64,000 bases of DNA, from the NCBI GenBank assembly GCA_902589475.1, contig CACITD010000006.1:1-64000 (forward strand), given 5' to 3'. Shown one piece after another: positions 13,545-16,758 of this stretch. A program made the position numbers and the translations under genes. The notes below the pieces were generated by a model. The model did no database searches. It had not been told where the DNA came from and saw only the letters and a list, made by a program, of their open reading frames with translations. The stretch's first letter is position 1; the number at the start of each line of letters is the position of its first letter. Origin of the DNA: an uncultured Alphaproteobacteria bacterium (lineage in GTDB: Bacteria > Pseudomonadota > Alphaproteobacteria > Thalassobaculales > Thalassobaculaceae).

Positions 13545-14837
13545 ATGAAAACTAAGGTGCTTTTAGGTCACCGCAGACCAGCAGACGGAAAATTATTTTA
13601 CCATGCCACAGCGTGCCCTTCTCCTAACTTTTCCACCTTAGAGGGCGATCATCATGCAGATGTCTGTGTTGTGGGTGGGGGCCTCACTGGTGTGTCTACC
13701 GCTCTGCATTTAGCCAAGTCTGGTATTTCCGTAGCGCTTTTAGAGGCACAAAGAATAGGTTGTGGAGCGTCTGGCAGGAATGGTGGACATATCGCTAACG
13801 GCTTTAGTTGCGAGTTAACGAGAATGGAAAAAATGCTAGGTTTCGAGGCAACAAAGATGCTCTGGCAGATGGTAGATTCCTATTTAGTTGATATAGATCA
13901 GAATATTCTTACGCACGGTATCCAATGTGATAGAAAATTTGGCTATATCTATGCAGCCAACAACAGTTATCAGATGCGAGAGTTAGCGTTATTGAATGAT
14001 CGTTTAAAATCAAAATACAACTATCAAAAAACAACCCTACTCCATAAATCTGAACTCGGAAAATTTTTAAGGACAGCCCAATACTCAGGCGGCCTTTTTG
14101 ATAAAACTTGTGGCCAAATAAATCCTTTTAAGTATCTGCAAGGATTGGTAAAGCAACTAAAAACAATGAATGTTAAAATTTTTGAACAGAGTCCTGCACA
14201 AGCGATCTCTCCAGGTTCTGATTTAACGGTCCACGCTGAAAAAGGCCGTATCAAATCAAAATACGTTTTGCTTGCCGGCAATGCTTATCTTAGTTGCAAC
14301 ACCCCGCTACTAGAGGATAAATCAATACCCGTTTCCAGTTTCGTGGGCGTAACCACTCCCTTATCACGAGCATCGATACAATCCATATTGCCTCGCGATG
14401 TGACCGTCGCAGATTGTAATAAGATTCCAGACTACTTCCAAATTATCGCCGGTAACCGTATGCTGTTCGGTTGCGGCATAAATTTTTTGGGGAAAGAGCC
14501 AAAAACTTTTAGAAAAATAATCAGTAGCAGAATTAAGCGCCTATTTCCCCAACTCACTAGTTTTGAACTCGAATACGCTTGGAGTGGCTTAATTTCATCC
14601 ACAACTAATAAGCTCCCTCATATTGGCCAAATAAATTCTCAGATATACTATGCCCAAGGATTTTCAGGTCATGGCGTAGTATTATCCGGCCTAATCGGAA
14701 AACTTATAAGTGAAGCAATTTTGGGGAATTCAGGAGGTTTTGAACTTTTTTCCAGAATTAAGCATAAAAAATTACCGCCTTATCCAATAAAAAGCATAGG
14801 CTTAGGCATTGCTAATCTTCTCCATAAACTTCAATAA
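13545..14837 (+). CDS. FAD-dependent amine/amino-acid oxidoreductase, PuuB-like
   Basis: A flavoprotein of the DAO family, about 430 aa. The ADP-binding motif VVGGGLTGVSTALHLA is followed by GCGASGRNGGHIANG, and the C-terminal FAD segment is FSGHGVVLSG. The N-terminal pattern ...FSTLEGDHHADVCVVGGG is typical of gamma-glutamylputrescine oxidoreductase and related deaminating oxidases. The track start is a TTG at 13500; the ATG at 13545 fits family length better, though neither has a good ribosome site. It is divergent from the hydantoinase by 149 bp, so its substrate may be an amino acid from that pathway or a polyamine. Confidence 0.82.
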   Translation: MKTKVLLGHRRPADGKLFYHATACPSPNFSTLEGDHHADVCVVGGGLTGVSTALHLAKSGISVALLEAQRIGCGASGRNGGHIANGFSCELTRMEKMLGFEATKMLWQMVDSYLVDIDQNILTHGIQCDRKFGYIYAANNSYQMRELALLNDRLKSKYNYQKTTLLHKSELGKFLRTAQYSGGLFDKTCGQINPFKYLQGLVKQLKTMNVKIFEQSPAQAISPGSDLTVHAEKGRIKSKYVLLAGNAYLSCNTPLLEDKSIPVSSFVGVTTPLSRASIQSILPRDVTVADCNKIPDYFQIIAGNRMLFGCGINFLGKEPKTFRKIISSRIKRLFPQLTSFELEYAWSGLISSTTNKLPHIGQINSQIYYAQGFSGHGVVLSGLIGKLISEAILGNSGGFELFSRIKHKKLPPYPIKSIGLGIANLLHKLQ

Positions 14838-14876: not shown

Positions 14877-14904
14877 TTGATATTGTTTACAAAAACGATA
14901 TAAT
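14877..14904 (+). promoter_or_regulatory. Near-consensus sigma70-type promoter of moaA
   Basis: The -35 element TTGATA is at 14877-14882, then 16 bp, then a perfect -10 TATAAT at 14899-14904. Transcription would start near 14911, about 37 bp before the moaA ATG. The start site falls inside the ModE-like inverted repeat listed next. Confidence 0.65.
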
Positions 14905-14906
14905 TA

Positions 14907-14932
14907 TCGTTATGTTTTCATATACATAACGA
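14907..14932 (+). promoter_or_regulatory. ModE-type molybdate operator upstream of moaA
   Basis: TCGTTATG at 14907-14914 and CATAACGA at 14925-14932 are perfect 8-bp inverted repeats separated by 10 bp. The 24-bp core has the form CGTTATGTT-N6-TACATAACG. This agrees with the E. coli ModE operator form CGTTATATT-N6-TACATAACG as I recall it. A further half-site-like AACGATA sits at 14894-14900. The position overlaps the predicted start site, which would suit repression by molybdate-bound ModE. No modE gene is in the window. Confidence 0.6.
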
Positions 14933-14947
14933 AATGTTGTCTTGCTA

Positions 14948-15940
14948 ATGCTTGATCCTTTTGGACGTACTATTTCATACCTGCGGGTTTCAGTGACCGA
15001 CCGCTGTGACTTCCGATGCACATATTGTATGTCAGAAAATATGACATTTCTTCCAAAAAAGGATTTGCTAACCTTAGAGGAATTAGAACGGCTCTGCACA
15101 GTTTTTATTAACCTTGGCGTCAAGAAACTTAGATTGACGGGGGGCGAACCGCTGGTTCGAAAAAATATAATGAACCTAATAGCCTCACTATCGAGACATA
15201 TAACCTCAGGAAAGCTGGAGGAACTCACATTAACAACAAATGGATCTCAATTATCTAAGTATGCCCAACAGCTTGCCGATAATGGTGTGAAAAGACTGAA
15301 CGTTTCTTTAGACACCTTAGACCGAGAAAAGTTTAAAAAAATTACGCGTTGGGGCGATCTTGACCAAGTGCTAGCCGGCTTAAATGCAGCTAAATCATCG
15401 GGATTGAATATTAAAATTAATACAGTTGCACTGAACGGCACCAATAACGACGAACTGAAAGATATGCTGACCTGGGCAGGCGACAACGGTTACGATATGA
15501 CAATTATAGAAGTTATGCCCATGGGGGATATCGGCAGTGAAACTAGGATTGACCAATACCTACCTCTGAACGCTGTGCGAAATGACCTATCAAAATATTT
15601 TACTCTTGAAGATATAGATTATAAAACAGGCGGGCCGGCGAGATATACCAGAGTAAAAGAAACCGGCGGAAGACTGGGCTTTATTACACCTCTTACACAT
15701 AATTTCTGCGAAAGCTGCAATAGAGTGCGTGTTACCTGCACAGGGACACTCTATATGTGCTTAGGTCAAGATGATGATGCTGATTTGAAAACTCCTCTGC
15801 GCAACTCCGAAGGTGATGAGGCAGTCGTAAGAGCTATCCGCGAAGCAATTTTACGCAAGCCCAAAGGGCACGATTTTATCATAGACCGTAATGCCGCAGT
15901 GGACCCTGTAACAAGACATATGAGCGTTACGGGAGGTTAA
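14948..15940 (+). CDS. moaA: GTP 3',8-cyclase MoaA (molybdenum cofactor synthesis)
   Basis: A 330-aa radical-SAM enzyme for the first step of molybdopterin synthesis, converting GTP to 3',8-cyclo-dihydro-GTP. The SAM cluster motif is CDFRCTYC (Cys at about 20, 24 and 27), followed by [10 protein letters not shown]. The second cluster ligands lie in [14 protein letters not shown], and the C-terminal Gly-Gly (SVTGG) needed for activity is present. The track TTG at 14942 is replaced by the ATG at 14948. There is no clear ribosome site. It is single and convergent with the PhyH gene; moaC and other moa genes are not adjacent. The ModE-like site predicts molybdate control. Confidence 0.93.
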
Positions 15941-15945
15941 CTCCC

Positions 15946-16758
15946 TTATTGCGTGCTATAGTAGTTTAACAGGCAATCCGGTTCCAACTCTACTAGCGGG
16001 TTAAAATTCCTAGCGGCATAGTACTCCGGCCTAGCAAAACTTTCGCCCCTATTGTCAAGCGCACTTACGTTAATATAAAGCAATAATCGTCTTAACGGTG
16101 AAATATTTACTGAAGACCCGTGTACGACCGCCATGTTCATTAAAAGCACAGTTCCTGCAGGTCCTTCTATTGATTTTATGCCCTGTCTATCAACTAAATG
16201 GGACAGCGTGTCGTCAGTTATGTCAAAACGAAACTTTGCTGCCCCATTATGATCAACAACGTTTTCGTCAATAATCGCCTCGGAAACCAGGCCATCTTTA
16301 TGTGACCCAGGTATTGCTAGTACAGGAGCATTACATGGTGTAACGTCATCGAGAAAAATGCCGATCATGATCCCTCTGGCTTCAGGGATACCATCAACTC
16401 GATGATACGTTCCAAAGTCTTGATGCCATTCCACTACAGAACCATTTCTTTGCTTAATATTTATTCGTGACTGATGAACGAAGACTTTTGACTCCAAAAG
16501 TTGTTCAACTGGACGTAGTAACTTTGGATGTTGAGTTAATATTTTAAAACGCTCGTCAAAAAGATGCATTCCCCAGCAAACATGGGGAGTCCCATCAGCT
16601 TCTCTAGCAACCTCTGGCCCTGACCTCTTCAATACATCGTAGGATGTTTTCTCTAAAACATTTATTTCTTTACGGGAAAAAACACTGGGGAGAACAATCC
16701 ATCCTTGCTCTTTATATTCGCGCATTTGCTCGTCTGTTAATGCTGTCACCTGTTTCAT
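15946..16758 (-). CDS. Phytanoyl-CoA dioxygenase (PhyH) family, Fe(II)/2-oxoglutarate-dependent
   Basis: A 270-aa non-heme iron oxygenase. The iron ligands are His and Asp in WHQDFGTYH and a distal His in VVHGSS; Arg in PLRRLLLY is the likely 2-oxoglutarate contact. The WHxDFxTYHxxDGxP context recalls ectoine hydroxylase and other small-molecule hydroxylases of this superfamily, but the rest differs and no ect genes are present. Its ATG overlaps the aldolase stop (ATGA), so it is cotranslated with that gene and probably hydroxylates an acid handled by the same operon. Substrate unknown. Confidence 0.82.
   Translation of the reverse strand: MKQVTALTDEQMREYKEQGWIVLPSVFSRKEINVLEKTSYDVLKRSGPEVAREADGTPHVCWGMHLFDERFKILTQHPKLLRPVEQLLESKVFVHQSRINIKQRNGSVVEWHQDFGTYHRVDGIPEARGIMIGIFLDDVTPCNAPVLAIPGSHKDGLVSEAIIDENVVDHNGAAKFRFDITDDTLSHLVDRQGIKSIEGPAGTVLLMNMAVVHGSSVNISPLRRLLLYINVSALDNRGESFARPEYYAARNFNPLVELEPDCLLNYYSTQ

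Follow-up and report, generated by a model that had tools for sequence, protein, structure and literature searches.

Introduction

Agrobacterium tumefaciens encodes, beside modABC, a short form of the regulator ModE that consists of the DNA-binding domain only (ModE(S)). Its known target is reportedly modA, and it is said to answer to the molybdenum cofactor (Moco). The title of a 2016 paper (Hoffmann et al.; cited in PMC7294313 and PMC10174112) links molybdate uptake in this organism to cellular Moco status. A ModE reduced to the DNA-binding domain is also found in Desulfovibrio, where the protein is without molybdate domains and the sensing step has been stated to be unclear (PMC545781). In Escherichia coli the regulator is full-length; moa is activated by ModE at promoter S1, and a Moco RNA in the leader allows Moco to shut it off (PMC2408646). 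The published E. coli-type ModE consensus is ATCGNTATATA-N6-TATATANCGAT (quoted in PMC545781).

Here we describe a predicted ModE-type operator in front of moaA in an uncultured alphaproteobacterium of the family Thalassobaculaceae. The window, i.e., the whole stretch of DNA that was analyzed, is 64 kb long, and the assembly to which it belongs comprises 2.08 Mb and is 59% complete.

Results

The moaA promoter and operator

The moaA gene (14948-15940, plus strand) encodes GTP 3',8-cyclase, the first enzyme of Moco synthesis, and its product was identified by the NCBIfam equivalog TIGR02666 with a score of 368.8 bits (cut-off 284). Direct reading bore out the promoter and the perfect 8-bp inverted repeat that had been placed at 14877-14932 in a sequence-only reading of the window. 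The −35 element TTGATA (14877-14882, plus strand) and the −10 element TATAAT (14899-14904, plus strand) are separated by a spacer of 16 bp. Within the genus (n = 4) the −35 element is TTGATA or TTGCTA at the identical place, and the −10 element is unchanged. The predicted operator (14907-14932, without strand orientation) is a perfect 8-bp dyad with a 10-bp centre; its arms are TCGTTATG (14907-14914) and CATAACGA (14925-14932), and its 24-bp core occupies 14908-14931. There are 15 bp between the end of the operator and the moaA ATG at 14948. Judged from the position of the −10 element, the transcript would start at about 14911, with a predicted leader of 37 nt.

Since the 3' neighbor, a PhyH-type dioxygenase gene (15946-16758), lies on the opposite strand and the 5' neighbor, a FAD-dependent oxidoreductase gene on the same strand, ends at 14837, short of the promoter, the promoter can directly serve moaA alone. 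A four-codon frame, ATGTTGTCTTGCTAA (ATG TTG TCT TGC TAA; window positions 14936-14950), whose stop overlaps the moaA ATG, was considered and set aside because it is absent elsewhere in the genus. Neither a Moco riboswitch nor any other Rfam family was detected in the 64-kb window, the moaA leader included.

Rarity of the match

Apart from the moaA operator, no perfect 8-bp inverted repeat in the window has a 10-bp gap, and on both strands the pattern TTGANA-N15..18-TATAAT occurs once only, at moaA. When up to 3 mismatches were permitted, a search of the window returned the moaA site as an exact match and one poor site at 3 mismatches, with 0.19 expected. The pattern CGTTATRT-N8-AYATAACG had one exact match in the 2.08-Mb assembly, again the moaA site, where an order-3 Markov model built on the window predicts 0.0016 chance matches.

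The palindromic CGNTAT..ATANCG core of a Mo-box, with its fixed spacing, is present at moaA. Comparison of the E. coli-type consensus with positions 14906-14933 gave agreement at 16 of the 20 defined positions (17 of 18 for the form of the consensus proposed in the sequence-only reading). Matrix scoring of the genome gave 21.5 for the moaA site, 12.8 for a site at C33:13005 and 7.4 for one at C13:41702. The latter two were rejected as further ModE boxes on the basis of these scores; no molybdenum gene lies near the C33 site.

Conservation of the box in genus, family and class

Each of the four moaA genes examined from the genus carries the box at the identical place, with the arms kept and the 8-bp centre drifting. 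At the family level it precedes moaA in 11 of 12 genera (g1-g11, not g12). A matrix built from family sites outside the window's genus detected it, at a score of at least 15, in 21 of 25 moaA upstream regions, some of which had also served to build the matrix; the four regions without it all belong to g12. Because of this partial training on the counted sites, pattern searches provide the cleaner evidence of conservation. In the family genomes, genome-wide searches with one mismatch permitted gave matches that, with few exceptions, belong to moaA or the mod cluster. The −10 element of most relatives lies 9 bp before the start of the box or overlaps its left half (+3). Across the class (289 genomes) there were 22 exact boxes versus 5 for a reversed control pattern, and among 17 loci read outside the family 10 adjoin mod genes and 1 adjoins moaA.

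Several related sequences were noted along the way. In Mesorhizobium and relatives (L048, L055, L061, L070 and L071) a CGTATCACATAGC(C/G)GTATATAACG-like sequence lies 55-75 bp before moaA, with one intact ModE half-site, the other half degenerate, and a matrix score of about 12. A box at L193:1239-1262 precedes by about 100 bp a frame that resembles a small Mop (molbindin) protein, as assigned by eye. Exact boxes at position 1501 of both L187 and L189 stand 40-120 bp before aldehyde dehydrogenase-like frames; no molybdenum gene was recognized near them, and they may be chance matches or new targets.

The ModE of this genome

The sequence-only reading depended on a ModE homologue being encoded in the genome. 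Both modE and modABC were found, in one cluster with the gene order metC-modE-modA-modB-modC. ModE is encoded at C57:889-1236 and matches TIGR00637 with E = 7.5e-24; its score of 83.7 bits is below the curated cut-off of 98.5, as are the scores of all relatives searched. Its matches among solved structures include E. coli ModE (E = 9e-14), and the best is the short ModE-type protein of PDB entry 2IJL (E = 6e-25).

The protein is short, 115-121 aa, and its single Pfam match covers a helix-turn-helix only. The C-terminal molybdate-binding Mop/TOBE domains of a full-length ModE are absent from it. In its own assembly the sole TOBE domain detected is that of ModC, and in the family TOBE matches occur in frames of >320 aa, many of which adjoin modE as ModC. 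Since the helix-turn-helix stands alone and TOBE occurs only in ModC, we assign the regulator to the single-domain form ModE(S). It shares with that class a DNA-binding domain alone (class size about 120-135 aa) and a location near modABC. A protein with this domain content cannot detect molybdate in the textbook manner. Because the assembly is incomplete at 59%, it could fail to show a further ModE of full length or a Mop protein; when more complete relatives were searched for TOBE and ModE, there was no sign of one. Eight molybdoenzyme-type domain matches in the genome point to a demand for Moco.

Search for a box at the mod genes of the genus

In the mod clusters of five same-genus species no position scored above chance (best matrix score 3.2, where maxima in shuffled 64-kb sequence were 2 to 17), and a box before metC, modE or modA was rejected for the genus of the window. 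The mod contig of the genome itself begins inside metC; the region upstream of metC was read in three same-genus species. An alignment of the modE-modA gap (L141:1236-1325 in this species) has CGTTATAT here and CATTA in four others, which is perhaps a decayed ModE half-site at most. In the same-genus genome G001 (93% complete) the sole other one-mismatch match falls inside a gene. With the modABC operon lacking a box, the usual companion target is missing in this genus, and moaA appears to be its only detected ModE box target.

Most sister genera do have a box before modA, mainly between modE and modA. A similar site before mod genes, whose absence the sequence-only reading had named as a refutation, is missing from this genus; the modA sites of its sisters answer this objection. 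The members of g12 (G044, G047, G050 and G051; loci L180-L183) carry ModE(S), and their box lies between modE and modA; despite the presence of ModE(S), the box was not found at their moaA genes. Genus g12 is in this respect the mirror image of the window's genus, with the box only at modA versus only at moaA.

Discussion

Probable repression of moaA and its likely cue

With a ModE encoded in the genome, a box at moaA throughout most of the family and a box before modA in related genera, a ModE-type operator over the moaA start is well supported. We consider it probable that moaA is repressed through this operator by the short ModE(S) when cells are replete in Moco, as an end-product feedback. 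If transcription starts near 14911, a ModE dimer on 14908-14931 would cover the moaA promoter from about −3 to +21 and, when bound, would block RNA polymerase. In related genera the −10 element mostly lies 9 bp ahead of the box or within its left half. Both are repressor positions, whereas an activator would be expected to bind upstream. It is this geometry that supports repression; ModE is also able to activate, as at E. coli moa (PMC2408646), and this counts against the repression reading. The cue would be a cell replete in Moco rather than molybdate bound to ModE, given a ModE without a molybdate-binding domain and, by analogy, the precedent of Agrobacterium ModE(S). In that case the end product would control Moco synthesis at its first committed step. 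Of the earlier proposal that molybdate-bound ModE represses moaA, the repression is supported on geometric grounds, and the molybdate-bound state is not supported, since the ModE found here is a DNA-binding domain alone. Against the preferred explanation stand the missing box at modABC in the window's genus and genus g12, which has ModE(S) yet no box at moaA. More tentatively, and with somewhat more doubt than belief, we suggest that the ModE(S) of the window's genus has lost its transporter target and is now a one-target Moco-feedback regulator at moaA, which would read Moco or the molybdate-loaded domain of ModC.

Alternatives to this explanation concern first of all the signal. ModE could repress in answer to molybdate, for which the TOBE domain of ModC, or a Mop protein not seen here, would be the sensor in contact with the short ModE. 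The gene for the TOBE-bearing ModC lies in one cluster with the short modE in the genus and shares a contig with it in most other genomes of the family; we know of no contact of a short ModE with ModC. The lack of a molybdate domain in ModE and the Agrobacterium precedent, which favors Moco, make a molybdate signal unlikely in our view, even though the E. coli ModE binds molybdate (PMC2408646). Activation from the operator after the fashion of E. coli moa, where ModE acts on the S1 promoter (PMC2408646), is less probable still: the site is not upstream but covers the predicted start or the −10 element, both in the genus and in most of its relatives, and a promoter so near consensus should need no helper.

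The inverted repeat itself could be read as a hairpin that forms in the leader RNA of moaA and controls translation or attenuation, and RNA from 14905 indeed folds at −15.7 kcal/mol (z = −3.65). However, RNA from the predicted start at 14911 lacks the left arm and the effect is gone (z = −0.61), so that good folding requires a transcript start before 14907. Arm positions are moreover unpaired in many relatives (CGCTAT with ATAACG), which fits the N of the ModE consensus and not a stem, and relatives have this box before modA as well, so we regard a hairpin as very improbable. That the repeat is a chance palindrome has in its favor that the window holds 24 inverted repeats with perfect 8-bp arms and gaps of 3-20; the sequence match, however, has no second instance in 2 Mb and is conserved across the phylogeny, and this footprint refutes chance for practical purposes.

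Comparison with known systems

A switch of this kind is already known, and the moaA site described here is a conserved and well-placed example. With the E. coli-type operators of modABC and moaA it shares the palindrome, and moaA is a target in both organisms. It differs in that the site covers the predicted moaA start and that the Moco RNA of the E. coli leader was not found in the window. The sequence-only reading had suggested that the sign of the switch is reversed with respect to E. coli. The contrast is subtler, since Moco RNA shuts off E. coli moa despite activation by ModE, and the two switches may have the same net logic. On E. coli moaA the Moco riboswitch (PMC2408646), an RNA element that is not homologous to the DNA operator found here, has the role that the operator would play, Moco shutting off its own synthesis. 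The moaA box suggests a protein-and-DNA stand-in for that riboswitch. If the signal is Moco, the box would close a plain end-product loop at the entry to Moco synthesis.

For the question of how the molybdenum state of the cell is read by a ModE that lacks a molybdate domain, one genus with the box only at moaA and another with the box only at modA offer a natural comparison within a single family. Desulfovibrio ModE has the same single-domain architecture and a different predicted box, CGGTCACG-N14-CGTGACCG (PMC545781), whereas the box in this genome is of the E. coli type. The ModE(S) of A. tumefaciens resembles the present regulator both in its domain content and in its location beside modABC, and the difference lies in the placement of the box, which in this genus is at moaA and not at modA.
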